Below, in pieces: positions 4,917-47,330 of a stretch of 64,000 bases of DNA. Numbering within the stretch: position 1 is the first letter of the stretch; each line of letters begins with the position of its first letter. The translations under genes were made by a program, and so were the position numbers. Source of the stretch: Bryoerythrophyllum caledonicum (lineage: Eukaryota; Streptophyta; Bryopsida; Pottiales; Pottiaceae); the NCBI GenBank assembly GCA_963971425.1, contig OZ020515.1:19898637-19962636 (forward strand). Reading direction: 5' to 3'. The notes beneath the pieces were generated by a model, which saw only the letters and a list, made by a program, of their open reading frames with translations, searched no databases and had not been told where the DNA came from.

Positions 4917-5112
4917 TACCCTTAACCCGTTCACGTCAGTATTCTACATGTATGGTGGTGTATTTTTACATGATAAGGTTCACGTATTGAAATGACCTCG
5001 AAATGAAACATTCAATCTAAAGGTGTAAGTCTTGCTAAAGTTGATACGATTTTGGTATTCTATGCAGTAAAATACATGCTGATATATACCATTTGCAACT
5101 GACCTTTGAGGA
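4917..5112. repeat. Family A TTAA-type MITE unit (single arm)
   Basis: A copy of the about 200-bp unit whose best copies lie at 9926-10400 and 12385-12800. It shares, in order, the words TTCTACATGTATGGTG, ATGATAAGGTTC, GAAATGACCTC, AAATGAAA, AATCTAAAGGTGTAAG, CTTGCTAAAG and AGTAAAATAC. It begins with TTAACCCGTTCACGTCA, close to the family terminus TTAACCCTTAAACGTCA. It lies 0.4 kb upstream of the SIK1-like start codon. Confidence 0.7.
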
Positions 5113-5131
5113 CGTACACATGCTTGGAACA

Positions 5132-5600: not shown

Positions 5601-5832
5601 TTAAGGATTGAACGTCAGTCGGGAACCCTATACATAGGCATGTATTTTACTCTGTAGAATACTAAAATTATATTGAAGTTTAGCAAGACTTGCACCTTTG
5701 GATTGAAGACTCTTCATCTATTGTAACATCTTTCATTTGGAGGTCATTTCATTATTAGAACCTTATCATTTCAAATGCAACAATATACATGTAGAATATT
5801 ATGGGCATTAGTGGCACCTTTTGGAGTTTAAG
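5601..5832. repeat. Family A TTAA-type MITE unit (opposite orientation to 4917-5112)
   Basis: This starts with TTAAGGATTGAACGTCAGTCGG and continues with ACCCTATA, GTATTTTACTCTGTAGAATAC, GTTTAGCAAG, CACCTTTGGATTGAAG, CATTTGGAGGTCATTTCA and ACATGTAGAATA, the order seen in the left arm of the 9926-10400 copy. It ends near TTTAAG at 5828. Confidence 0.7.
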
Positions 5833-7908
5833 AGTTTACTCCTTTGTTTTCTAAATTGAAATTTGCACTTCAAATTTGAGAATCTAATGATAATAATAAA
5901 ACTCTCAAAAATATTTGATTATCCCCACAATAAAAAATATAAGCTTCAGAAAATAGGGTGGATGAAAATGATGTTCAATGACAAGAAATTTTTCAATTGT
6001 AATCTAGCATGTGGATGATTGAGCGTTTAGGGGTTTATTGCAAAAGTGGATTGAGAAATTAGGGAATTGTGGCAATGATGCAAAGGCGTTATTGATTCCA
6101 ACACCTTCTTTAGATATTTTGCACATGGAGTTCTAGAGTGGTTTAATCTTTAAAAGACACACTTTTTGTTGAACAAATAATTGGAGTTTGATTAAATTTC
6201 CAAAAAAAAACTTAAATGTTTGAACAAAACATAGGGACATTCATCCGGTTTGTAAGGGGAATTTTTTAATTACATACCAATAGTAAAAGTTATACTACTA
6301 GAAACAATCAAGGCAATTTGGGCAATGGTGGCACATATAGGGCAATGTTGCAATGTGGGTGGTTGTGAAGGCATGTCTAGCTATTTGCATAATGAAAAGT
6401 ATATGTGCAAGCAAAGAAGATGTATTCAACAATACCATGATTATGTGCCATGTGAAGGGAAATAACATGTGAGTATAAACGACATTCATTTTTATTGATG
6501 TAATTTTTTTTTTAAATTGTAAATTTTTATTTTTATTTTTTTAATTAATTTAAAAAAATCCCATACAAAGTCTATGTTGATATTGGTTGTTCAAAGTTGT
6601 TTTGGAAGAAGCACATGATGCTTTTTAGCAAAAGCCATGAAGAAGCAAAGTGCAAGCCATTGTTGCATAGTTCCATGCTTTGATTTCCATTACACTTCAA
6701 CATTATATAGAATAAGAGAGGATAAATTTGTGTAAGTATAGAGTTCCATACTACTAAACCTATGTCTGGCGGACATGGATCCAGTGGTGGAACAAACAGG
6801 CATTTTATTCACGCCGGCCCCCTCTGCAAATCAAAGTTTTTTTTTTTTTGGGTATAAGTACAAAAGATTTTTTTCTAGACTTCAAAAAAATACTACTTGT
6901 AAATATGATGGGTTATTTGCTTTCATCGTTTTAGATTTGAGAGGAGAAAAAATTTGAGCGCGCAACAAATTCTTAGAAATCAGCCAGTATTGTCTTTTTT
7001 GTGGACCTCCTTGTATTGCATGACCATTTAAAATAGGTTGCATTGTGTATTTGCTTCTAAATTTTGGGTGTATGTACCATAAGATATACTCATGAATATT
7101 GAAGAGCCTCAAATTTTTTTAAGCAAATTTTTTGTTCCAAGGGAGCTTAAAGTCTTTGTTTTTGTCAGGCAAATTAGAAAAACTCAAATGGAACTTTTGT
7201 TGGTAATACTCTTTCAATCCACATGGTCAAATAGACTAAATTTTTTTCCACACATGATTTCTACAATGGTCTACTACCATTTTTGTATAGTTGAAGTTTA
7301 GAATTTTTTTTTTAATATTTTCCCTTTCCCAATCATCAAAAAATGGCATTTTTGACAATTTTCATTTTAAAAATGCCCCTAGTCCTTTAGGGATTAAATA
7401 TAAAGCCGTTTTGGATCTATATGCAATCTATGTACAAATCTCAATTGCAAATGTGAGAATTTGGTTAGCACCTTGTTGGGAAGGTCATTTAGCTTGATCT
7501 TAAGCACTACTTGATCCAATTTTGAGCCTCAATTTATTGTTGAAAAATGTCCACATATTACTTTCCAATTCATCATGTAATTAGAACGATGTGTTTTTTT
7601 AATAAAATTATCAATTATATGTATAATATGTAAGTTGAATGTGCTAATGGTACATTGTCGCCCAAGTACTTAGCAACATGGTCTGAATAGAATCAATTGA
7701 CTTAACTCGCATAGATATGAATATTAGAATTATGTAGAAACTCATTTGCTCTTGCATCCAATAGAAATATCCTTAAAGGTTAGGTTGGGAGTGAGGTGGT
7801 GAAAACCAGAAGCTTGACTATAATTTACTAATATTAAGGCTAGTCTAGTACCATGAATTTCATATACCACCTCACCTTCTCAATTCTCATCCATGTTTGT
7901 ATTGTAGA
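5833..7908. other. AT-rich intergenic DNA with element fragments
   Basis: No credible gene. The sequence is rich in T-runs and A-runs. About 6045-6120 is a diverged direct copy of about 4780-4862. At 7381-7397 there is AGTCCTTTAGGGATTAA, which matches the right terminus of the TTAA-flanked element at 19222-20148, so an old copy probably ends here; I could not find its left end. Confidence 0.4.
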
Positions 7909-9171: not shown

Positions 9172-9440
9172 TTAACCCTTAAACATCAATCAGTAATCGT
9201 ATATATAGGCACATACTATACTCCATAAAAAATACAAAAAAATATTAAAGTTTAGCAAGCACCTTATACCTTTGATTTTAAGTTCTTCAACTAACATCTT
9301 GCATCAGGAGGTCATTTCAATATCTGAACCTTATCATGTTCAACGACAACACCATAACCATTTTGCAACTTCTCAAACATGTAATAAGTACAATAACAAT
9401 CTAGATTTGAAATGCCATGGGTCATTGGATCGGGCACAAC
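9172..9440. repeat. Family A TTAA-type MITE unit (single, diverged)
   Basis: It begins TTAACCCTTAAACATCA at 9172, the best-preserved outer terminus of the family, and continues with GTATATATAGGCAC, AGTTTAGCAAGCACCTTA, AGGTCATTTCAATAT and CCTTATCATGTTCAA. The inner part is diverged, ending near ATGCCATGGGTCATTGG, which matches the inner part of the 9926 copy. Confidence 0.65.
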
Positions 9441-9629
9441 ACAAATACAAACTATTGTAACTATTGTATACATCAATTCTTACACCTTGTTCGTCAAATA
9501 CACCTTGCAACCCAAATGTAGCTTCTCAGACCTTTAAGGATTAAAAGCAACACCCAGGAGTCATGTGAGAAAAATCATGGCTATTCACAAAAAAAATAAA
9601 AATGAAGAGAGTGTTACCCAACTGCTTCC

Positions 9630-12089
9630 TCAACTGCTTTCGCCGTGCTTATCTTCGTCGTAAGGCAGCTCATGCCGAGGTGCATCGTACTTTTCTCTCA
9701 ATTGCTTACACGCTATGAAGTCTCCCGCACCATCCATTCCATAAAACAGAAAGTATACGTAGGGATGGTCAAACTGCTCAAAATCAGGCTCCTCGGGGGC
9801 TACAAGATTATCTTCGGCCACATACGTCACCATCACGGACGGCTCCTCCCGAATGTCCACCAGCAACTGCAGTCACAGCACAAGGCTTTAGCCCCAGAAA
9901 TGCACAACACCTCATAATACATGTGTTAACCCTCCAACGTCAGTCGAGAACCCTATATACACGGCACGTATTTTACTCTATAGAATACAAACAATGTATT
10001 CAAGTTTAGCAAGCACCTTACACCTTTGGATTGAAGATTCTGCAAAAGACATCTTTCATTTGGAGGTCATTTCAATCCATCTTAACCTTATCGTGTTCAA
10101 ATACGACACCATACATGTAGAATACCATGGCCACCAGCGGGTCATTGGGTCGTTTAAGGGGTTACCCCTTAAACGTCATAAGGTGCCACTGGTGACCACA
10201 ATATTCTACATGTATGGTGTTGTATTTGAACATGATAAGGTTCAGATGGATTGAAATGACCTCCAAATGAAAGATGTCGTTTGCAGAATCTTCAATCCAA
10301 AGGTGTAAGGTGCTTGCTAAACTTGAATACATTGTTTGTATTCTATAGAGTAAAATACGTGCCGTGTATATAGGGTTCCCGACTGACGTTGGAGGGTTAT
10401 GTAAAGAAGCACCCTGAATAAGATGGTGAGCAAGGATAGGTTTCTTTCAAAAATCGCTACGAGGAAGAGAAAGAGAAGAGAAAAACGATTATGATCCAAA
10501 GAGAGCTCCCTTGCGAGAGAGAAGAGAAAGATAGCATTAACCAAGACGTGGTGTCTGTACTCGACCACATTCCGCGAGGATCTCATAATCTCATAATCTC
10601 ATAATCCTGGCATGTTGAAAGATAAGAAGTGATGATTATACCTGGTAAAATGGTTGGTTGCGGCCGCGAGGGAGCTGCTCCACGGCGACTTCACGCATCC
10701 AGTCCTCGGACTCGCAGCACACGGGGTCCATGCCGCAGACGACGCCGCGGTAGCCGAGCGCGCGGTGCTTCACTTTCTGGCCCAGGCGGAACTCGTAGCT
10801 GCNNNNNNNNNNNNNNNNNNNNNNNNNNNNNNNNNNNNNNNNNNNNNNNNNNNNNNNNNNNNNNNNNNNNNNNNNNNNNNNNNNNNNNNNNNNNNNNNNN
10901 NNNNNNNNNNNNNNNNNNNNNNNNNNNNNNNNNNNNNNNNNNNNNNNNNNNNNNNNNNNNNNNNNNNNNNNNNNNNNNNNNNNNNNNNNNNNNNNNNNNN
11001 NNCTTCAATCCAAAGGTGTAAGGTGCTTGCTAAACTTGAATACATTGTTTGTATTCTATAGAGTAAAATACGTGCCGTGTATATAGGGTTCCCGACTGAC
11101 GTTGGAGGGTTATGTAAAGAAGCACCCTGAATAAGATGGTGAGCAAGGATAGGTTTCTTTCAAAAATCGCTACGAGGAAGAGAAAGAGAAGAGAAAAACG
11201 ATTATGATCCAAAGAGAGCTCCCTTGCGAGAGAGAAGAGAAAGATAGCATTAACCAAGACGTGGTGTCTGTACTCGACCACATTCCGCGAGGATCTCATA
11301 ATCTCATAATCTCATAATCCTGGCATGTTGAAAGATAAGAAGTGATGATTATACCTGGTAAAATGGTTGGTTGCGGCCGCGAGGGAGCTGCTCCACGGCG
11401 ACTTCACGCATCCAGTCCTCGGACTCGCAGCACACGGGGTCCATGCCGCAGACGACGCCGCGGTAGCCGAGCGCGCGGTGCTTCACTTTCTGGCCCAGGC
11501 GGAACTCGTAGCTGCAGCTGCGCTGCTGGGAGGCCATGGCACTGGCCTGCGCCGCGAGCGACTCGGACTCGAGCGCCACAATCTTCTTCCGCACAGCCGC
11601 CGCCGCAGCGTAGTCCTCCGCCGCGATCAGCCGCTGGAGCTCCGCCTTGGCCTGCAGCAGCGTGAGCGCCGTGTCGTGCGCGTCACCCCCCTCACTCCCC
11701 CCCACCTTCACTTTGCGCTGCCGCTCCATCTCGCGCTCCACCTCCGCGATCTTCTCGCGCAGCCCCTGCGCCGCCTCGTACATGTCCTGGTTCAACGCGC
11801 GCCGCAGCCGCGTCGTCAAATCCAGCTGGAAGAAGAACATGAGCAGCTCCTCGTTCGCCCGGTCGCTCCTCTCCCCCGCGACCTCCCGCCTCTCCGCCCT
11901 GCACACCACCACACCTCTCCTCCCCCCTCCCCCGCACCACAACCTCCCGACCGCCACCCGCACACCCACACGGACTCCTCCTCCCACCTTCAACCGCGAA
12001 CTCGCCATCGCCAACCCAGGACTCGCCACCGCCACCGCCATCGCCTCGGTTCCTCCGCCCAACCCTAATGCTACATACGAAGAACACAT
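9630..12089 (-). CDS. CLPF: ClpF-like chloroplast UVR/YccV-domain protein
   Basis: Plastid protein like Arabidopsis ClpF (At2g03390), a substrate selector of the stromal Clp protease that works with ClpS1 and the ClpC chaperone. Two exons: 12089-11355 and 9866-9630. The donor CAG|GTATAA and acceptor CTGCAG|TTG are both phase 0, joining NQPFYQ to LLVDIREEP; the product is about 323 aa. Residues 1-65 are Arg/Ala/Gly-rich, as expected for a transit peptide. A second ATG at 12041 is an equally good start. Helical UVR-like segments lie near residues 90-125 and 150-180 (EDYAAAAAVRKKI). The YccV/HspQ-like domain follows (FRLGQKVKHRALGYRGVVCGMDPVC, YVAEDNL, FDHPYVYFLFYG), ending with KQLREKYDAPRHE. 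The intron holds a family A MITE and a 200-N assembly gap. The first 161 bp on the far side of that gap (10642-10802) repeat the end of exon 1 exactly and should not be counted as an extra exon. Confidence 0.9.
9926..10400. mobile_element. Family A TTAA-type MITE, head-to-head dimer (475 bp)
   Basis: A nearly complete foldback inside the ClpF intron. It starts TTAACCCTCCAACGTCAGTC at 9926 and ends with the inverted form up to GGGTTAT at 10400. The arms of about 230 bp are close reverse complements. They meet at 10151-10175 in a palindrome around AAGGGGTTACCCCTT. Each arm is itself a unit with TTAA...CCCTTAAACGTCA-like ends, so the structure reads as two units joined head to head. TTAA at the left end and TTAT at the right fit a TTAA target site with one mutation. 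Confidence 0.85.
10290..10802. repeat. Left copy of a 513-bp exact direct repeat flanking the gap
   Basis: Identical base for base to 11003-11515 at a constant offset of 713. It ends exactly at the first N and the second copy starts exactly after the last N. This is the pattern left by two contigs whose overlap was not merged. It contains the end of the MITE, part of the intron and the last 161 bp of ClpF exon 1 (10642-10802). Confidence 0.95.
10803..11002. other. Assembly gap (200 Ns)
   Basis: Exactly 200 Ns, a conventional placeholder length. Given the exact repeat on either side, the true gap is probably zero or negative and the 713 bases from 10290 to 11002 are probably not in the genome. 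Confidence 0.97.
11003..11515. repeat. Right copy of the 513-bp exact direct repeat flanking the gap
   Basis: The right-hand partner of 10290-10802. This is the copy joined to the rest of ClpF exon 1, so it is the one to use for the gene model. Confidence 0.95.
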
Positions 12090-12384
12090 CGTGTGTGCTC
12101 CTCTTTCTATCTATCTCCTCAAAATTTGCATGTGGGCTATGGTTTTTTGGGGCATTTGGTATTGGATTTGTTGGAGATCAATGTGAGGGTGTGTGTGATT
12201 TTTGTATCAAGTCATGAGCGCGAGGACGACGACTTCATCGTGATGATGAAGATGATGATGCAGCCAAATCTAGTGACGTGAGTGGTGCAGGATTGAAAAA
12301 CCTTGGGTGGCGACGTCCCACGAGTGGGGTGGTCACTGGTGAGGAAGGAGGAAAAGTTGAGGTTGAGGAATGATCAACCATTTG

Positions 12385-12800
12385 GTTACTCGGGAACCGT
12401 ATATACCTGCACGTATTTTACTCCGTAGAGCACCAAAACTGTATCAAAGCTTAGCAAACACCTTACACCTTTGGATTGAAGATTCTTCAACGAACATCTT
12501 TCATTTGGACGTCATTTCAATCAATCTGGACCTTACCATGTTCCAATTACGACACCGTACATGTAGAATATCGTGGCCACTAGTGGGTCGTTTGGTTGAT
12601 TAAGGGGTTAACCCCTTAAACGTCAGAAGGTACCACTAGCGGCCACCGTATTCTACATGTACGGTGTCGTAATTGGAACATGGTAAGGTCCAGATTGATT
12701 GAAATGACGTCCAAATGAAAGATGTTTGTTTAAGAATCTTCAATCCAAAGGTGTAAGGTGTTTGCTAAGCTTTGATACAATTTTGGTATTCGAGAGAGTC
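12385..12800. mobile_element. Family A TTAA-type MITE, head-to-head dimer
   Basis: A foldback about 0.3 kb upstream of the ClpF start codon. The arms contain TATATACCTGCACGTATTTTACTC, AAGCTTAGCAAACACCTTACACC, GGACGTCATTTCAAT and CATGTAGAATATCGTGG, and their reverse complements in mirror order. The centre is a perfect 20-bp palindrome, TTAAGGGGTTAACCCCTTAA, at 12600-12619. It can be read as two unit ends, TTAAGGGG and CCCCTTAA, sharing one TTAA. Confidence 0.85.
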
Positions 12801-12974
12801 AAAAACGTGTTTGTTTGTATTGGCGTTCGAGGTTTAAGCAATGTGCATATGTGGAGAGAAGAAAGAATTATACAAATATTTTATAGTAATAGCCAATCTC
12901 AATCCAAGTGATTTCATTTTTTTGTTCATGAGATGGGAATCAGTTATGGATTTTCAATGTGTGTTGTCATCTTT

Positions 12975-13565
12975 AGTCGGTGGTCGCCACTACGTACCTC
13001 CCACAAGCCCCGACGGAAAGTAGGAGATTCTGACTGATAGTGAACCTTCGTTTGGACGGGTGAGTAATTGAGGTATATCCAATCCACTTCCATCCCAGTT
13101 GGAAATGGATTTTGGTTGGTTATGAGGGGGTATTGTACCTCCCACAAGCGCTGACCAAAAGTAGAGGATTCTGACTGATAGTGAACCTCCTTTTGGATGG
13201 GTGAGTGATTGAAGTATATCCAATCCACTTCCATCCCACTTGGAAATGGATTTTGGTTGGTTACCAGGGGGTATTGTACCTCCCACAAGCGCTGACCAAA
13301 AGTAGAGGATTCTGACTGATAGTGAACCTCCTTTTGGATGGGTGAGTGATTGAAGTATATCCAATCCACTTCCATCCCAGTTGGAAATGGATTTTGGTTG
13401 ATTACCAGAGGATATTGTACCTCCTACAAGCCTTGACCAAAAGTAGAGGATTCTGACTGATAGTGAACCTCTTTCTGGATGGGTGAGTGATTGAAGTATA
13501 TCCAATCCACTTCCATCCCAGTTAGGAATGGATATTCGTTGGTTACCAGGGGTACCGTACCTAGT
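12975..13565. repeat. Minisatellite, 141-bp unit, about four copies
   Basis: The landmark TTTTGGTTG recurs at exactly 141-bp spacing (ends at 13118, 13259 and 13400), and less perfect copies lie outside these. Each unit carries GTGAGTGATTGAAGTATATC, CAATCCACTTCCATCCCA and TCTGACTGATAGTGAACCTC. Because 141 equals 47 codons, two overlapping minus-strand frames (12944-13375 and 12990-13586) stay open across the array. This follows from the period and is not good evidence of a protein. The core resembles the dispersed repeat at 54072-54283 and 63494-63706. Confidence 0.85.
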
Positions 13566-19221: not shown

Positions 19222-20148
19222 TTAACCCTTAAAGGACTAAGAGGACCAAAACGGTCCTCTGGTGAATTTGGGCAGGTACCTATGATTCGAAAAAAATCCT
19301 TTTTAATTGGATTTTTTTTCAAGACATGATCTGATAAGAGTTTCGTGGAGGTTTTTTTTTTTTTTTGGATTTGTGGTTTGAAAGTTAGTACCACTTAAGC
19401 CAAAAGTGGGGACTTCGGGCACCTCCAAAATTTTTGACAAAAGTTTCTATTGACATTGAGATTTTTCACACATATAAAGAATATTTCCTTATTTAGAAAT
19501 TTTCCAAAAAAATCTTGTCTTTAGTGTAAAAAGGCATTTTATTCCAAGTCAAACATTTTCACACATTGTCGGGCAATGGGGGAAAAAAATTTCATCTTTT
19601 CTACATAAAACCTAGAGATCTTCATATTTTTCACTTTTTATTTTTTCAATAACAATATGTGGTGAAAACCTTCTTATTGACCGTTTGGATTATCATTTAA
19701 ATACATACGTAGTTCACAAAAAAATAAAACGTGAAATGGCAATTTTTGAACCTCCACTCCTTGCACACTTGTTTTGAATATGCTACACCTCTTTTTTACC
19801 TCTAAAAATTGGTGTGTTGGGAAATAACATCATGCTTAATACAATCGTAAAAGATTTAGACCTTGTGCAATGCAAAAATTTGATACAAAGTGGAGTCAAA
19901 GTCAGCTGATCTACTCAACGCAAGGATGAAAATGAACCATTGTTTTGACTTTAAACACTAAAATCTATCAATCCGTGCGGTGGATTGCAACCAAAATTTG
20001 ATGGCATGTTCATATGGAAGTCTATTTTAAGATCTTACGGTTGAAAATCCGAAATTCACTTTAAAATGTGATTTTCATGTCTCTTTTTGATAGTGGCAGT
20101 TTTGGACTGGTTTTAGAGCGAAATAGGTCGTTGTCCTTTAGGGGTTAA
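19222..20148. mobile_element. Family C TTAA-flanked inverted-repeat element (about 0.92 kb)
   Basis: Bounded by TTAA on both sides (19222-19225 and 20145-20148), with inverted termini CCCTTAAAGGACTAA and the reverse complement of CCCCTAAAGGACAA. No coding capacity is visible, so it is non-autonomous. Two further copies are recognisable by long stretches: one inverted and split by the LINE (31990-32727 plus 39997-40254), and one in direct orientation ending at 42055. A TTAA target with CCC...GGG ends is the pattern of piggyBac-type elements, but no transposase was seen. Confidence 0.75.
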
Positions 20149-25050: not shown

Positions 25051-26303
25051 TTGCAATATACATCAATTCATTCATCTTTGATAGTCTTTAAACTTCAAAC
25101 CTATCCTTACATTCAAAATTATATACAATAATAAAAATGTTCGCATCAATATAAGATATTGTCCAATGATTTTGAAAATATATGTGTTGATTCAAGTAAT
25201 CAACAATGAATTATCTTTTGCTATCATAGCTGAAATATTTTTGGTAACATGAACTCCAATTATAATTTATAAGTAATATATACACAAATTTTGTAATCAT
25301 GGAAGATAATAATCATGTCTTTGTTAAGTAAGCCTCTGGACTAATGATTCTTCATAATTAAATAACATTATATTATCGTTTGCTATCTTTAATATACGAA
25401 TAACTAAACCAAGTCTTAAACCTAAAATGAAAAATCTATGAAATCTTATGAATTCAAAGGATGTAAAACAAAAGGAATTACTATATTTTATCATATGAAT
25501 TTCTATTTTAAATCTTGTTTTGTTTGAAAAAGTTTTGATATCAAAATCCATTAAACAATCAATTATGTGTAAATCAATCATTATTTTATACATGGATGAC
25601 ATATAGTAATTCTAGAATGAATTTTCAATATCATCTTAGTTAAAAAATAAATAAATTTGAATTGATTGCATTATATGATAGATAACAACAAAGATAAATC
25701 TACGTTGAGCCACGTGTCTTTTTTAAAATCAAATTTATATAAAAATAACATTCTCTAACACAATGTATGCTTCCAAATTACATTTTACTTTGTAAACAAT
25801 ATCAAACAATTCAAAATTTTTAAATACCATATAATTGTAGATGTCATTGGTGCAACGACAATAAATCCAACGATAAATAAAGGGATGAAAAAATGAATGA
25901 TTCTAATACAACAAGACTCACGTAACTTTCATATAATTGAAGTGAGCCAACCTCGCTGTGCTACCAGTGACATTATTCAGTGCTCGTCCTGCCCTGTGAA
26001 AGAACACCTCATTACAGGAAAGGTCCAATGGTCGTCAAGAGACAACTATTCTTCACAACCTTCAAGTATACAACTATTTGATCCCAAAGGTTGTACTCCA
26101 CCATTCACCAATAAATCAACCTTTCATTGAACCCCCAATCCATCTTACCAACAATAATCTCAAACAACTCTAAAAAAATAACCATTATTGAAGCAAAAGC
26201 TTCTACCAACAACATGTCGTGTCTCATTTCCCACCTCTAGAACGCAACCAACCCACCGGCTCAACCCTCCAAGGATCAAGTATTCCAAAACATTGTCACT
26301 TTC
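25051..26303. other. AT-rich intergenic DNA upstream of the unrecognised gene
   Basis: No supported gene. If the gene at 21908-25050 has further 5' exons they would lie here. I found no exon with matching phase and convincing splice sites. Confidence 0.35.
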
Positions 26304-26646
26304 ACTCCAATTATTTTTCACTCCGTACGCTCAAATTTTACAAAGCTTTCACCACATTATCTCATCTAAGTTTAGCAGAAGATCCTACGGTTACATTCTC
26401 GTCGAGTTCATCCCGGCGGTTTTTAATCAATGGAGTTGGGATTCCTCTAAAATTGCCTCGGTGTTTTAGGGGTTTACCCCTAAATGACCACAACCAATTT
26501 TAGAGGAATCCCTACTCCATCAATTAAAAACTGCGAGGATGAACTCGACGAGAAGGTAACGGTAGGATCTTCTGCTAAACTTAGATGAGATGATGTGGTG
26601 AAAGCTTTGGGAAATTTGAGCGTACGGAGAGAAAGAGAATTGGAGT
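26304..26646. mobile_element. Family B foldback MITE (343 bp)
   Basis: The arms at about 26304-26464 and 26485-26646 are close reverse complements. They share CTCCGTACGCTCAAATTT, AAGCTTTCACCACAT, AGTTTAGCAGAAGATCCTAC, CTCGTCGAGTTCATCC and GGGATTCCTCTAAAATTG. They meet in the 20-bp palindromic TTTAGGGGTTTACCCCTAAA at 26465-26484. The sequence differs from family A but the architecture is the same. It lies about 0.65 kb upstream of the C3H start codon. Confidence 0.8.
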
Positions 26647-26659
26647 GGAAGGGAGGGGG

Positions 26660-27293: not shown

Positions 27294-30200
27294 ATGGATT
27301 CGTATGAGGCGACGCGGATTGTGTACGGGCGGGTGCAAGCGCTGGAGCCGGAGTCGGGGAGCAAGATCATGCTGCATCTGCTGCTGCAGGAGCACGGGGA
27401 GCGGGAGATGATGCGGCTGGCGCTCGGGTCGAATGTGCTGATGCAGTCGGTGGTGAAGAAGGCGAAGAAGGAGCTGGGGCTGGACGCGCTCCCGGCGCCG
27501 CCGCCGCTGCCGCAGCAGCAGCAGCGGCCTGCGCCGCTGTACATTCCGGATCACGAGTTCGGGAGCGGGTTCTCCTCGTCCAATGTGCAGCTGGCCGCGC
27601 TCCAGCAGCAGCACTTCCTACAGGAGCAGCAGCAGCAGCTGCCGCTCCACGACCACATGTCGCTACTCGCCGATGCGGGTGGGGAGTTCTACTACCCGGA
27701 GGCGTACGCGTTTTTGAACAGTGGCAAGGAGCTCCTGCATTCCCGATCTAGTAGCAGCAGCCGCGCGTCGCCCATCGTGGAGAGCTCTTCCTCCCCGCCT
27801 GATCTCGGCCCCACGCTAGCGTGGAAACCGTGCCTCTACTTCGCGCGCGGCTACTGCAAGCACGGCAGCAGCTGCCGGTTCCTCCACGGGCCCATGCGGG
27901 AGAGCTCGGGCTCCCCCGCGTCCAGCAATGGCAACCACCGCTTGAACGACGACATGGCGCCGGGGTCGCTGGAGCGCCTCGAGCTCGAGCTCCAGGAGCT
28001 TCTGCGCGGCCGCCGCGCCCCCGTCTCCATCGCCTCTCTCCCGCAGCTCTACTACGAACGCTTCGGCAAAACTCTCCAGGCCGAAGGCTACCTCACTGAG
28101 TCCCAGCGCCACGGAAAAGCCGGCTACAGTCTCACCAAGCTCCTGGCGCGCCTGAAAAACACCGTCACCCTTATCGATAGGTACGCGCCCATCTCTCGGC
28201 TAACACACACACACACACACCCACACACACACACACACACACTCTGCAGGCTTCCTTTCTGCAAGTGCTGATGAATTGCACAGGTGATGCATCATGAGGT
28301 AGGCGAACAATGCCATTCATCTGATTGATGCAGGATTAGCATTTATATCATGTTGCTTGTAGGCTTCGACTAGTGAGAGTCAATCTACACACGCAATGGT
28401 AGTAGGAGCGGTGAGGGGGGGGGGGTGGCCTACCACTTGATAGATCCGAGAGGTGGGAAGGAAGGGCAAGAGACAGACAGCAGAAAGAGAGGGTACCCTT
28501 CTTACAGTGGGTGTGGGCAGTGGTTTACTCAGACACAAGCACACTGCTGGGTGTTTGAACAGGCCTCATGGTCAACATGCAGTTGTGCTTGCGGAGGATG
28601 CGCATCGCTTCACTGCGTACCGCTCTGACCACCGCGGCGAGGACTTGAGTGGCATCAACCCGTCGTCCCGCCAGATCTACCTCACCTTCCCTGCCGAGTC
28701 TACCTTCACCGAAGAGGATGTCACTTCCCATTTCAGGTACTTCCCACTTCTAGCTCAAGATTCTCACCTCTCCACACAGGATTTACCTCTTCTCACAAGT
28801 TGGCTACCTGTTTTTTCAAATCTACCTCAACATATCCGTGTTTCTTTCAGTTCTAGCTCGCACTTGTTCTTATGAGATGGGTGGATGGATGTGTGTGTAC
28901 GCAGGGCATATGGTCCAGTCCAAGACGTTCGGATCCCTTACCAGCAGAAGCGGATGTTTGGTTTTGTGACTTTTGTATATTCAGAAACTGTTAAGGCAAT
29001 TTTGTCCGAAGGGAATCCGCATTACATATGTGGAGCGCGTGTGCTGGTCAAGCCCTACAGAGAGAAAGGCAAACATGGTGACAGGTAATAATGCAAGCTC
29101 ATCTTTCTTGAGGAGAGTGATTCGCTGGTTGGGAGGATACTGACTCTGTTCTCGTCGTCTTGTAGCAGAAAATATTCTGAGAGGGCAGATCATGTCCGAT
29201 TTGTACAGAACCGCAGTATTGATGGCAAGGATTTTGATTACCATGCAGGTGAGTCATTGTTGGTTCAGAAATTTATATTTTGACATGTTTTAGCTTGTAT
29301 ACTGCGCCATTTGAAGTTGGCGGGTTGACTGACCTCTCTTTGTGCAGTTTCTAAATTTTACGAAGAGGAAGAGGCTTTCACCCGCCGATTGGAAGAGGAA
29401 GAGGCGGCGCTGGAACAAGAGCGACGGCGCCTAGCCGAGCTTCATCTCGTTGACGCTCAGCGCCGTCGTGTCGAGGCCGACGCCACAATGGCCGTGGTGG
29501 CTGCACAGAACCGCGCTCTTGCAAACACTGCGTTTACCACTGATGATTTGGGGCTGTCCGATGAAGGTAAACGCGCCTGCAGATCAAAGCTTTTGAAAGG
29601 GAAATCATCTGGGTGCTCATTTTAACATCATGCTTTTGAGTGATCGGCAGGTCTGTCTCAGTTTCACCCGAGCAATTCGTTCGGTTATCTACTCGACGTC
29701 CTGGATGGCGTCGAACAGACTGACGAGATTGAACCCGCTCCTGATCAAGGCTTTTTTGGCAACAAGCAGAAAAGGTGGGATTCCCATTTCTTCAGACGCA
29801 TGCAATAGGATCAATGATCTACCCACTAATACCAACACTTTCTTTGCTGTTATCTTCTTGCAGCAGTGGTAACAACAACCTATCAGATGGTCGCAACGGC
29901 CACAATCTTCCAGATAGCCCATTCACGAGCCCCTTGGGAATGAGCAAGCAAAAATTTTCACTGCCCGAGAAGTTAAATAACTTGAGTTTGCAAGGCTCAC
30001 AGGTGAGTCGCAGCAATTTCCCTCAGTATCCATGAACACGTATTACCGTAGTCCTTAAACCAGAAGGTCGCAGTACTCTACATGTATGGTGTTGTACTCG
30101 AACATGATAAGATTCAGATATTGGAATGACCTCCAAATGAAAGATGTTAGGTGACGAATCTTCAATCCAAAGGTGTAAGTCTTGCGAAACGTAAATACAT

Positions 30201-30346
30201 TTCCTATATTCCAGAGTAAAATACGTGCCTGTTCATACAGTTTCCGACTGATGTTTAACAATCATCTGTGTTTCTCATTGCAGAACACACAGGAGACACT
30301 GTTCAGTTGGAATGCAGCCACTCTTTTTGCGTCCAGTGCGTTTTAA
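27294..30346 (+). CDS. CCCH zinc finger / LOTUS (OST-HTH) / RRM protein
   Basis: RNA-binding protein of the plant C3H subfamily that includes Arabidopsis C3H22, C3H46 and C3H53. Eight exons: 27294-28180, 28563-28736, 28905-29084, 29166-29248, 29348-29566, 29651-29774, 29864-30002 and 30284-30346. All introns are GT-AG and all phases agree. The product is about 622 aa. I chose the ATG at 27294 because [20 protein letters not shown] matches the usual family start. Domains: N-terminal helical region with Gln runs (about 1-120); CCCH finger C180-x7-C188-x5-C194-x3-H198; LOTUS/OST-HTH-like segment (about 224-294); RRM (about 332-408, with RQIYLTF and MFGFVTF as RNP2 and RNP1); acidic-basic coiled coil (about 443-490); Ser/Asn-rich tail ending LFASSAF. 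The fourth and seventh exons have tandem NAGNAG acceptors. The seventh intron holds a family A MITE. The likely role is post-transcriptional control of mRNA. Confidence 0.88.
28201..28242. repeat. (CA)n microsatellite in C3H intron 1
   Basis: About 20 CA repeats with one interruption, just after the exon 1 donor site. Confidence 0.95.
29163..29168 (+). promoter_or_regulatory. Tandem NAGNAG splice acceptor (exon 4 of C3H)
   Basis: The intron ends TAGCAG. Using the first AG gives an extra serine (reading SRKYS); using the second gives RKYS. Both keep the frame. Confidence 0.7.
29861..29866 (+). promoter_or_regulatory. Tandem NAGNAG splice acceptor (exon 7 of C3H)
   Basis: The intron ends CAGCAG. 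The first AG gives SSGNNN and the second gives SGNNN, again differing by one serine and keeping the frame. Confidence 0.7.
30053..30258. mobile_element. Family A TTAA-type MITE, single unit, in C3H intron 7
   Basis: A unit of about 206 bp running from CCTTAAACCAGAAGG to TGATGTTTAA. In between it shares TCTACATGTATGGTGTTGTA, AACATGATAAGATTCAG, GACCTCCAAATGAAAGATG, CTTCAATCCAAAGGTGTAAG and AGTAAAATACGTGCC with the dimer copies. It has no partner arm, so the unit can exist alone. Confidence 0.85.
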
Positions 30347-43072: not shown

Positions 43073-44978
43073 TAGAGACTATGGAGCCACATGAAGACCT
43101 AGGACCTAGCTCTAGATAATAATTAGGGTTAGGTCACTGCTCCTTGACAGCTAGGTCAATGGTGGTGTCTTTTGACACCTCATTCGAGACTTCAATATCA
43201 AATGACTTCCTTGCAGTGTTGAGGGAGACTCATCTTTCTCAAGTTGAGTCTCCCAGGTGATAAGGTGAGGGAGTGCGTTCCACTCTATTAGGTTCTTTGT
43301 GTGAAATGCTATCAATATTCTTTAAGAATGGCATGGACTTCATTTGTTGCAGATCGTAAAGAGGTTTTGTTGATTTCATAGTAAAAGGTACTTATGGACT
43401 GCTTATGAAACTTTGTGGTGTATGTAGTTTTGGGTATTTATCTCTTTACCTTGAGCCTAAGTTGCTGAGTAGTGCATAATTTATACTTTGAACTATTATT
43501 TTTGTTGACTACAGAGCCAACAGTGATGGTTTAGTCACTACTTTTCCAAGTTTGTCCCTAACTGTGCGTTCTCACATGTTTGCACAATGTTATCTTTTGC
43601 ACAATGCGTTTGTGCACGTCGTATATATAACCAAGGTGGTCGCTCTGCCAAATGTACTACTTACTATGTCTTTGCAAACTAGTTTGCTTCACGTGCAAGA
43701 AGTGACTTTTAAGTTTGTGGTGGTGGAGTTTAAGATATGAGATAGGTGCAACATGGCTGAATCAGGTGGAACTTCAAGTCAGATACTGCGATTTTCAGTG
43801 CATAGATTTCTTCCCTTGATTTGATTGCATTCATGGTGTAGTGTCTAATTTTTCTTGTGATTGCAATAACAAGCTGTAGAAGGCTGTAGACACATTTTCT
43901 GCAAAAATGATCCTAACTTTGCTTTTGGTTGTGTTTACAGGGACAAATGAGGTCTTTTACTTCTAGAATTTTCTGGCTATAGTCCAACAATATTCAAAGG
44001 TTGAAGAGTATTTTTGGAGTTTCAATCTATCTTTTGTTAAGGTATGTCTTTCTTTAGACAACCTTGCTTTCTAAGTTGGATTGGTTTGTTATTATAAAGA
44101 TTATATGGTGGTTGGACACTTTTTTGTAAAAAGTACCATGTAATTGAATTGGAAATATCTTGATACCAGAGAGTACATAAAAAAAACCTTTCTTTTACAT
44201 TTCTTTCGATCTGTTACTCTATGATTACTAGTAGTTTCTTAGTATTAATCACCATTTGATTGGTAATACAATAATACAAGAGAGTACATACATCTGATAA
44301 GATTTGAGATCGGATTGATTTGGAATTAATTTTGGTAAAAAATCAAACAAAATCTCTCTAGAATAGGGATGTGCCGCCTACCCGTCCTTAAGGGTAGGGA
44401 TTTGTTTTTGTTTTTTCCCCTTTTTCCCACCCCCAAGGATGTTAAAATGGCAGGTCTTGGCTTTTTCCATGGGAGGTTGTAGGCACAACAAGAAGCCTTA
44501 ACCAACCATGGTGACTGGAGGAGAAAGTTCCAGTCTTACATGTGGAGGCGTAGAAGGTGCCGCTTCAACACGTAATGTTGTAAAAATGATGTGGGGTTTC
44601 CGGTTGGCAACATGTTGTGGACCCGAGCGACACCATTGTAGCCAACCCAACAACATCCACGACACCCCATTCCCTGCTACAGAGCTCCTGTGTCCAACGG
44701 TGCGGATATTCCAACCCAAAACTTTGCTACCTTATAACCTCTGCTGACGCATATCCTCCACTAAGTTTTAACCCCTACTAAAGTCTTACCACCCCTACTA
44801 CCAGTGCCATATTGAACTAAAACTTATTTAAGGTGATTGTATAGTATCCCAACCAATTCCGCCTCAGAATGTACCCCTTGAGCAAGAAACACAACCCCTT
44901 TTGTAGATTCTACACACATATAGCACACCTTGTACAATCGAAGAAAGTATCTTTACAACAGACCCTTTCAAGTTTAAG
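43073..44978. other. Intergenic, no gene recognised
   Basis: AT-rich and then mixed composition. Frames such as 44508-44747 plus have no motif. No RNA gene was seen. Confidence 0.4.
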
Positions 44979-45182
44979 CCTTAAACGTCATAAGGTGCCA
45001 GTAGTGGCCACATGTATGGTGTCATATTTGAACATGATAAAGTTCAGATACTACAATAATCTCCAAATGAAAGATGTTAGTCATCCCAAAGGTGAAAGGT
45101 GTAGTAGAATATACGTTCTTAGTATATTCTCGAGATGAAAATACGTGCCGGTATATACGGTTCCCGGCTGACGTAGAAGGGC
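44979..45182. mobile_element. Family A TTAA-type MITE, single unit, in the RPB4 promoter
   Basis: Runs from CCTTAAACGTCATAAGGTGCCA to GGCTGACGTAGAAGGG. It shares ACATGTATGGTG, AACATGATAAAGTTCAG, CTCCAAATGAAAGATG, AAATACGTGCC and TATATACGGTTCCC with the other copies. It ends 93 bp before the RPB4 start codon, so it overlaps the proximal promoter or 5' UTR. Confidence 0.8.
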
Positions 45183-45275
45183 TATTCCGCGAAGGTGAAG
45201 CGCCGTCGAGACAAAAGAGAGAGCTGCTCGAGCCGCAGAAGAGCTCTTGTCTGTGTCTTCACCAAGCTTGCGGCG

Positions 45276-47330
45276 ATGGCGGCCAGAGCCGGAGCGCCCG
45301 CGGAGGAAGAAGACGCCAGTGAGCTCAAGCTCGGAGAAGGTATGTGAGCGCTCTTACGGTTTTTTCCTTGAAAGTTAGGGTTGCGAGATGGATGCCAGAA
45401 GAAGCACCTTATTCTGTGATTTTTACATGTTCTGGTGTAAAGGCGATGTTAGAATTGTTTCTTTGAAGTGCATTCTGTGGTTTACCTGCTCTGACGCTAG
45501 TTGCGCTCGAGATTTTGTGGAAAGCCGGTGTTCGAATCGTTTCTTTGGAGTGCGTGCTTGAGCAATTTTTTTTATCGTGTGAGATTGCGCTAGTTGCGCT
45601 TTACGATTCTAGTGTTGGAAAGGCTATGTTAGAGTTGTTTATTTGAAGTGCGTGCTTATTCTGCTCGTTTTAAAATAAAACATTGGCGTTTTGAGTTCTG
45701 TTCCATGTGGGAAGCCGATGTTATAATCGTTTCTTTGACGTGCGTGTTTGAGCATTTTTTTTTTATGTGTGAGATTGCGCTAGTTGCGCTTTTCGATTCT
45801 AGTGTTGCATTTGTGGGAAGACAATGTTAGAAGCGTTTTATTTGACGTGCGTGCTAATTCTGCTCGTTTAAAAAAATAAAAATCTGGCGTTGTGAGTTCG
45901 TTTTCTAACGGTCAATGTGGCAAGGGATGCCAGAATTGTTTCTGAGACGTTTCTGATTATTTGAAGATGAGAAGAATAATCTGTGGAACCGAGTAATGCT
46001 TTCGTGTTGCCGATTTTCAATGTGGCAAGCTGGATATGAGTATTGCTATTTGGTTTAGTCATATGACCTTTTTTCATCGTTATTGTGGTTGTGCAGATTT
46101 TGTGAAGGCGAAGTGCTTGATGAACGCAGAGGTGTCACTTGTACTGCAGAGAAAATACGAGCAACTGCAGCAACTAGCAGATGATCCTTCTGCTCAGATA
46201 TCACAGTATGCTCTTATTCGCCGTGATTGAATCAATGAGCGAAGGTGCTATCAGGGGCATCTATTAATTTGCCACCTTTTTTCTTTTTCTTTTTGTGCAG
46301 GGTGTTTGAGAAGTCTTTGCAGTATGTCCGACGCTTCAGTCGTTATCAGAATCCTGACGCCGTGAAGCAAGTTCGAGAGTATCCGCTCTTGTTTTTGTTG
46401 GTTTGAAACTGTTCGATTTCAACATCTTAGGTTTTGAAAATGCTCCATTATCTTTGTACATGAAATTTAGTGGTTTAGTTTTGAACATCGGTTGTCATTT
46501 CCGAGTACTGCATGGGGAGTTTTGGGAAACCAGCTGTGATTGAGAATAGTGTTACGCTGTAATGTTGTGTGAAACATTCTGGTCCCTGTCAACGACTATT
46601 CTGGTGGAAAATTCTTGACACAGTTCTTCAGGGTTTTGACGAGAAATCAACTGCACGAGTTTGAGGTACAACCTGCAACTTGCTACAATTATCCTGTTCT
46701 TAGTGCTTTTTGGGGATTGAGAGGTATCCCCAAGAATTTGTAGATACATATCGATACTTTCAAGTCCTAAGTGGTGACCACGAGCATCGCTAGTAATGGT
46801 AAATTTGAGAAGAGAAGCAGCTCATGTAGTAACATTCCAGGATATTTCGCCATAGCGTGTCAGTGTTCTTGGATCGGACTATGCTTTACAATAACGATTC
46901 GTGAGATTTTAGTGTGGCGTTTAATTCCTTCATATATTTGTGATCCTGAACGGTGTGTTGATGAGGTTTCAGGTGTGCGTGATTGGGAATTTGTGCCCAG
47001 AGACTGTCGAGGAGGCGAAGGCTCTTGTACCATCTATTACGGTAAGCTCATCGAGTCTTTCTCACTCAAATATACTCAGTGGACTCGTCTGATCACTAGC
47101 CTTATACCCCATTATTTCTTTCTCGAAGCTGGCATGTGTTTCAAGTTTGACGTTTTGGGTCTAAAACTTTCATATCTGAAGTTTCTACATACTTGATTAT
47201 ATCATTGATCTGATGTGAGAGTTGCAACTTGGATTTTGGCTGTGGTGTCTTACAGAAAAGAGGTCGCATGGACGACGAGAAAATCGAAACTATGCTAACT
47301 GATCTGGCTACTATCAAGAAATTTGAGTAG
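45276..47330 (+). CDS. NRPB4: RNA polymerase II subunit RPB4
   Basis: Subunit 4 of nuclear RNA polymerase II, which with RPB7 forms the stalk that helps initiation and mRNA handling. Six exons: 45276-45339, 46097-46205, 46301-46378, 46632-46665, 46973-47041 and 47256-47330. All introns are GT-AG and all phases agree. The product is 142 aa, near the usual plant length. Diagnostic stretches are AKCLMNAEVSLVLQRKYEQL, QVFEKSLQYVRRFSRYQNPD, EVCVIGNLCPETVEEAKALV and the end DDEKIETMLTDLATIKKFE. The acidic N-terminal tail (EEEDASELKLGE) is typical. The start codon is the first ATG after a 5' leader rich in GAG/CTC. Nothing is disrupted, so I expect a working gene. Confidence 0.95.

Follow-up and report, generated by a model that had tools for sequence, protein, structure and literature searches.

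How does a short transposon come to stand head to head with a second copy of itself, and are such pairs made anew each time or do they spread as units? The question is raised by a 64-kb stretch of the moss Bryoerythrophyllum caledonicum (assembly GCA_963971425.1, contig OZ020515.1, positions 19,898,637 to 19,962,636; hereafter the window), in which a family of miniature inverted-repeat transposable elements (MITEs) with units of approximately 215-240 bp is present in five single copies and, twice, as an inverted dimer. With a probability of about 0.62, a few founding insertions, dimers spreading thereafter as foldback units, and conversion between their arms together explain the orientation, the pairing and the arm likeness seen in this family, and, as part of the same reading, the units are non-autonomous MITEs of the piggyBac superfamily.

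The dimers in the window

An earlier note, made from the letters of this stretch, had described a MITE family occurring as single units and as inverted dimers, with units of about 200 bp. The family and both of its forms were recovered, at the larger unit size given above. When arm A1 or arm B1 of the dimers was employed as the query, all five single positions proposed in that note and both dimers were matched (E <= 2e-13), and inverted repeats nearly without spacer were found at 9927-10162/10164-10399 (dimer A, 93% identity) and at 12410-12609/12610-12809 (dimer B, 90% identity). Read inward, both ends of a unit begin with CCCTTAAACGTCA, a terminal repeat of about 13 bp, after which the outer end runs on as GTCGGGAAC and the inner end as GAAGGTGCCACTGG. 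The latter inner end is referred to as the X type, and a different one, found in one arm of each of these dimers, as the Y type.

Dimer A (9926..10400) is flanked by TTAA (9926-9929) and TTAT (10397-10400), and consists of arm A1 on the forward strand (9930..10161), with a Y-type inner end (AATGACCCGCTGG), and arm A2 on the reverse strand (10165..10396), with the common X-type inner end (AAGGTGCCACTGG). Its junction (10162..10164) reads GGGG-TTA-CCCC, one base short of TTAA. Dimer B (12374..12837) lies between TCAA (12374-12377) and TTAA (12834-12837), and is composed of arm B1 on the forward strand (12378..12607; Y type, AACGACCCACTAG) and arm B2 on the reverse strand (12612..12833; X type), with a TTAA common to both inner ends at 12608..12611. 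The junction of the latter dimer, TTAAGGGGTTAACCCCTTAA, was matched exactly at 12600-12619, in agreement with its earlier description as a pair of unit ends with one TTAA in common. The RNA fold computed for dimer A reached -383 kcal/mol, compared to an average of -112 over 100 shuffled versions.

The segments 10290-10802 and 11003-11515 (513 bp, 100% identical), which lie on either side of a gap of 200 N (10803-11002), are an unmerged contig overlap and hence an assembly artefact. The stretch 11003-11112 resembles a third arm, but belongs to the end of this duplication. Such an origin was discarded for the dimers themselves, since the two arms are 7-10% different in A and B and 326 junctions are present in the genome.

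Orientation of units at the junctions

The whole 437-Mb assembly (894 contigs) was searched for the junction pattern CGTTTAAGGGTTAACCCTTAAACG, a 24-bp palindrome made up of two tips and one TTAA. With up to three mismatches, it was detected at 326 places, while the reversed control gave none and the random expectation was approximately 0.09; dimers as unit ends sharing one TTAA, as previously proposed, are thus found genome-wide. We read 50 of the 326 junctions, all with 0-1 mismatches except one with 2. Seventeen were inner-inner (II), 14 outer-outer (OO) and two head-to-tail; the remainder comprised eight in which just one side was a unit, including L077, which is counted as one-sided and faces a Y-like end missed by the profile, and nine between other families. 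L084 and L085 represent one event copied by segmental duplication, and are the sole pair of dimers alike over their whole length.

These classes bear on the suggestion made earlier that a unit inserts into the TTAA next to another one. If each dimer were an independent insertion of this kind, junctions sharing one TTAA would be expected, II, OO and head-to-tail arrangements should all occur, as they do, and other TTAA families should abut in a similar manner, which is what the eight one-sided and nine two-sided cases look like. However, because TTAA is palindromic, chance insertion beside a unit should give 50% head-to-tail dimers, that is, a ratio of 1:2:1 for II, tandem and OO, while 17:2:14 was seen. 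Inverted junctions made up 31 of the 33 between units of the same family, and head-to-tail ones only 2/33 (p=6.5e-8; without L085, 2/32, p=1.2e-7).

Pairing of inner ends

In II dimers, A and B included, one arm usually carries an X end and the other a Y end, examples of the latter being AACAACCC, AACAAGCC and AAYGACCC. Genome-wide, we counted 1,244 inner X ends with up to two mismatches (control, 0; an array on C6, described below, is included in the count) compared to 64 Y ends of the GGGTTGTT type, seven of which are similar copies lying together on C1. X thus makes up roughly 95% of the counted inner ends, and a random draw should yield X-X pairs about tenfold more often than X-Y pairs. 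Coordinates were matched for 100 of the 151 places with X at a junction and for all 21 with Y at a junction; by pattern, at equal stringency, this gave 14 X-Y, 0 X-X and 0 Y-Y pairs, which again argues against independent insertion. Twelve of the 14 X-Y pairs are safe, the partner being from another family at C3:36970979 and only Y-like at C6:9318687 (= L077). Further second ends were encountered at L053, L056, L060, L068, L070 and L079, and X-Y pairing is a tendency, not a rule. Some recurrence of the Y motifs AACAASCC and AAYGACCC was observed at unlinked loci. Instability of symmetric centres was considered as a cause of the pairing, an idea weakened by the OO dimers in which both ends are standard (L067, L069, L075, L076 and L080).

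It is very probable that stepwise insertion next to a unit does take place, because unrelated TTAA families abut likewise, and the founding dimer event may have been of this kind. Alone, it does not explain orientation and pairing, and as the origin of each dimer, in the form suggested earlier, it is unlikely in view of the tandem fraction and the absence of X-X pairs in this matching.

Likeness of the two arms

Arms were compared within 18 II dimers (A, B and 16 of those listed) and 14 OO dimers, and permuted between dimers 5000 times; L085 was omitted as the duplicate of L084, and L004, L026 and L039 as lying outside the 50 listed junctions. At 60-120 bp from the junction, the identity of II arms was 0.926 within their own dimer vs. 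0.847 when permuted, and at 120-190 bp it was 0.864 vs. 0.753 (0/5000 in both cases), while at 12-60 bp the values were 0.701 and 0.684 (100/5000). OO arms showed a similar excess at 60-120 and 120-190 bp (0.886 vs. 0.809 and 0.885 vs. 0.815, respectively; 0/5000 for each). In a tree of 62 units, 7 of 10 dimers had arms that clustered with each other. Arm bodies far more alike than the parts near the junction are, once more, not what independent insertion would leave behind.

The same profile bears on another explanation, in which inverted dimers are copied de novo as a mirror image, by a template switch at a terminal hairpin, and the centre diverges later. Such copying would readily produce the strong orientation bias and arm bodies as alike as those of dimer A (up to 100% at 120-190 bp). 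The centre should then match too, in contrast with the II values at 12-60 bp, and both 10-bp tips are kept, although the pattern search selects for kept tips. Since a recent local insertion and a mirror copy would both make the centre alike, its unlikeness disfavours the two, and we consider de novo mirror copying improbable. Arms that change in concert, and do so least at the centre, are consistent with fold-back template switching, a process described as homogenising the arms of inverted repeats (PMC8604942); the pattern is observed, while the mechanism is what we infer from it.

Monomers and target site

To arm A1 there were 49 matches, in 39 distinct loci and 40 target elements, obtained by scoring 40 of 3,127 candidates, a sample biased towards A1-like copies that includes dimer A. 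Monomers were the majority form, accounting for 31 of the 40, along with seven II dimers (dimer A included) and two OO dimers. The earlier note had asked for this count and for an inspection of the inner ends of single units, which proved mostly recognisable and not ragged: most monomers have recognisable tips at both ends, and their inner ends are mostly X, not Y. Although a dimer junction gives each arm a full tip, so that a transposase could conceivably lift one arm out, it is most improbable that monomers derive from foldback dimers by deletion or excision, given their predominance, their mostly recognisable inner ends with TTAA on both sides, and their X rather than Y ends.

Flanks were analyzed for the elements in which both ends could be recognised, 45 in number (single, 32; joined, 13); once rows sharing identical flanks had been merged, 32 single elements and nine dimers remained. 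On the left of the 32 monomers, positions -4 to -1 read T26 T26 A30 A30, and on the right, +1 to +4 read T25 T29 A28 A25, so that each base of TTAA is present in 25-30 of 32 copies and the target assigned earlier was confirmed. The flanking 4-mers are identical on both sides in 15 of the 32, and two copies carry a variant duplication, CTAA/CTAA, that is duplicated whole. Beyond the target the bases are mixed, except for the first one on the right, a purine in 25/32 (A14 G11). The target is the 4-bp TTAA, not a 3-bp site. A search for empty sites with a single TTAA, also called for in the earlier note, returned one paralogous case, L041, which is weak (78% identity, 29 bp past the join).

Superfamily and resident piggyBac transposases

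PIF/Harbinger elements, to which the Tourist MITEs belong, duplicate a 3-bp TTA/TAA. They were rejected as the source of the units on the basis of the fourth base (A in 30/32 on the left and in 25/32 on the right) and of the whole CTAA/CTAA duplications. Kolobok elements, for which a TTAA duplication and 5'-RR/YY-3' termini are reported (PMC9587614), were rejected as well, as the unit termini are 5'-CCC...GGG-3' and not RR/YY. In PMC2872659, the piggyBac superfamily is characterised by TTAA, by a CC[C/T]T motif and by terminal repeats measuring 12-19 bp; in the moss, CCCTTAAACGTCA is a 13-bp repeat with a CCCT tip, and is found at both ends of most monomers.

A profile search with PF13843, in which 116 of 305 candidates were scored, yielded at least 120 matches in the genome, all above the cut-off and the best at 6.2e-81, and none in 14 control genomes. 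When tip patterns were paired (45 of the 100 tip matches listed were used), four elements of 4.93-4.95 kb, each enclosing a PF13843 match, were found to end in TTAA+CCCTTAAACG. Both inverted tips are exact (TTAACCCTTAAACGCCCAGG) in C9:3124490-3129422 and C14:1798016-1802945, while C4:15096672-15101613 and C1:13582401-13587354 have tips with one mismatch per end. The downstream end of the C9 copy reads TTAA-CCCTTAAACGCCCAGG, and the similarity of this lineage to a second copy stops at TTAA; its left tip, outside the approximately 2.5 kb read upstream, was located by pattern search. In another lineage, with a TTAA-CCCCTAAAGGCCC end, likeness among three further copies stops within 1 base of TTAA. 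For lineage a (C749), no 3' tip was recognised within 1.2 kb.

The C9 element contains a frame of 493 amino acids that matches PF13843 along its whole length, with a Cys-rich tail after it. By phmmer, the frame matched piggyBac (6x67) with E 3.1e-31 and piggyBat (9c0f) with 4.3e-28. Counted along the alignment, D268, D346 and D447 of piggyBac, which we take to be its catalytic aspartates, all face Asp in the 493-aa frame. The piggyBac-type transposase with the same termini that the earlier note had proposed to look for is therefore present, with the common part of MITE and 4.9-kb elements being TTAA and the 10-bp tip CCCTTAAACG and no more. Judging from these shared termini, the resident piggyBac transposases may be what moves the MITE units.

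Other copies and neighbouring elements

Among the single copies in the window, monomer C (5601..5838, forward strand) is flanked by TTAA (5601-5604) and TTTA (5835-5838). Monomer F (4924..5118, reverse strand) is degenerate, its flanks being read by eye as GTAC / GTAC, monomer D (30057..30264, reverse strand) has degenerate ends, and monomer G (44974..45189, reverse strand) has an X-type inner end. The copy at 9172, listed earlier as one of the five single units, is one only in part. This element E (9172..9544, forward strand) begins with the outer end TTAACCCTTAAACATC and matches the unit over its first ~185 bp only, followed by a different terminus, AAAGGTCTGAGAAGC, at 9544; it is a chimeric or extended relative.

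Other TTAA-type elements were noted. The one at 19222-20148 (927 bp, TTAA at both ends, termini CCCTTAAAGGACTAAGAGG / CCCCTAAAGGACAACGACC) represents another family of this group, and ends like its own meet at some of the junctions L044-L047. An unrelated foldback at 26296-26654, with 160-bp arms at 90% identity and GGGGTTTACCCCTAAATGACC in its 39-bp centre, is a second family that resembles two joined TTAA-type ends. A uniform element of 369-370 bp was present at 16 places among the matches listed (for instance, C2:955676-956044 and C15:10747320-10747688); its tips, near TTAACCCTTAAACGCCCAAG, are like those of the 4.9-kb piggyBac elements, and it is probably a young MITE. Doubled tips such as TTAACCCTTTAACCCTTAAACG were seen in L061 (~2195-2224), in L062 (777-798) and at the outer ends of L038 and L039, as if an end had inserted into the TTAA within another tip or an excision had left a scar.

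At C6:3571028-3590223, at least 25 copies of the MITE inner end follow one another on a single strand, mostly at a spacing of ~715 bp; this is a tandem array that took in a unit. Tandem arrays in the window itself are located at 12994-13552 (141 bp x 4.0) and 45516-45899 (190 bp x 2.0). A Tc1/mariner-type frame (L020:1-651; HTH_Tnp_Tc3_2, E 3.8e-12) lies 0.85 kb from a monomer, and the plant-typical domains PABC_AtC3H46 and DUF247 are encoded in the window and the loci.

Discussion

The reading to which we gave a probability at the outset can be set out as follows. MITE units would be moved into TTAA by cut and paste, the piggyBac transposases responsible being encoded at other places in the genome. 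Because the tip CCC-TTAA-ACG both borders and contains a TTAA, elements would often insert against one another, leaving the ends that share a single TTAA in the sequence. A few founding junctions would have given rise to inverted dimers, which would then spread mainly as units, in the form of a foldback element of ~470 bp with both outer ends alike; it is the orientation bias and the X-Y tendency that suggest this step. The arms would be kept alike by arm-to-arm conversion or by fold-back template switching, acting least within ~60 bp of the junction.

Several observations weigh against this account, and some of them would suit independent insertion better. Whole dimers have the long inverted arms of a foldback unit, but the matching outer 4-mers expected from a single target duplication around the whole are present in only 1/9 dimers, vs. 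15/32 monomers, and transposition of a dimer as one unit is accordingly a hypothesis. X is joined to an X-like end in L081 and to a shortened X-like end in L064 (both by eye), the second ends of L056 and L060 are altered X-like ones, and L079 is without an X end. Y ends are mixed. Their mutual identity at 12-30 bp (0.538) is not above that of X-Y comparisons (0.552), so that common ancestry of all Y ends is unsupported in aggregate and several founders or fast change are needed; moreover, 49 of the 64 Y ends do not run into an intact second tip. At OO junctions, a standard outer end is paired with a variant one in only 7 of the 14 dimers, the other seven not being so. OO arms are also closer near the junction than expected (12-60 bp, 0.715 vs. 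0.664; 0/5000), and with this excess and the 100/5000 for II arms the sparing of the dimer centre is relative. The arms of L012, L026 and L039 do not group by dimer in the 62-unit tree. Finally, beyond the 10-bp tip, MITE and 4.9-kb element differ.

A wider picture, in which mirror dimers became self-propagating foldbacks, mostly X-Y and with concerted arms, within a piggyBac community that is large and may have been active recently, with open frames in several of its transposase matches and more than a thousand MITE ends, is put forward only tentatively; we would rate it as possible, with the odds somewhat against it.

piggyBac is best known from animals, and piggyBac MITEs are known from animals. 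The moss units resemble a group of these, the CMITE families of the coral Acropora, which are described as piggyBac MITEs of ~100 bp in tandem arrays ascribed to replication slippage (PMC2872659): both are short, with TTAA duplications, a CC[C/T]T terminal motif and multi-copy arrays, and one CMITE family is likewise linked by its terminal repeats to a resident piggyBac-like element. In contrast with CMITEs as presented there, the moss units are ~215-240 bp long and, where joined to one another, mostly form inverted dimers (31/33 same-family junctions read). At the protein level, the 493-aa frame is like the piggyBac transposase (PDB 6x67/6x68) in that the three catalytic Asp face Asp, and unlike it in being a distant relative (E 3.1e-31), the comparison being of proteins and not of element tips.

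As in the carrot Stowaway MITEs DcSto (PMC3695323), plant MITEs are here nested in one another. The DcSto target is TA, and the part of that paper available to us describes no inverted dimer with a shared target. Kolobok also duplicates TTAA, and KolobokP has multimers and solo forms, according to the accessible text of PMC9587614; its 5'-RR/YY-3' termini differ from the 5'-CC/GG-3' of the moss MITE.

With regard to plants, the available part of a 2008 survey names five superfamilies, piggyBac not among them (PMC2528002). One 75-bp piggyBac piece is reported from a feather-grass genome (PMC8319324) and 1,230 pieces of ~100 bp from a fern (PMC6890710), PiggyBac is among the superfamilies that a 2015 survey records for every group it covered (PMC4438587), and piggyBac is included with the plant superfamilies in a 2024 review (PMC10794571). 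In view of these last two sources, that plants contain piggyBac is in itself no novelty. The literature searched, which covered few subscription journals, yielded no description of plant piggyBac MITE dimers.

The complete 4.9-kb piggyBac elements with open frames, together with more than 1,200 intact MITE inner ends, provide a test bed for piggyBac biology in plants, and piggyBac tools adapted to plants might be drawn from them. A testable signature of the dimers is that their junction is asymmetric, that a target is shared and that the likeness of their arms exceeds chance; they also bear on how MITEs become long hairpins, which are possible sources of small RNAs. If the foldback dimers do propagate themselves, they would supply the genome with ready-made long hairpins.

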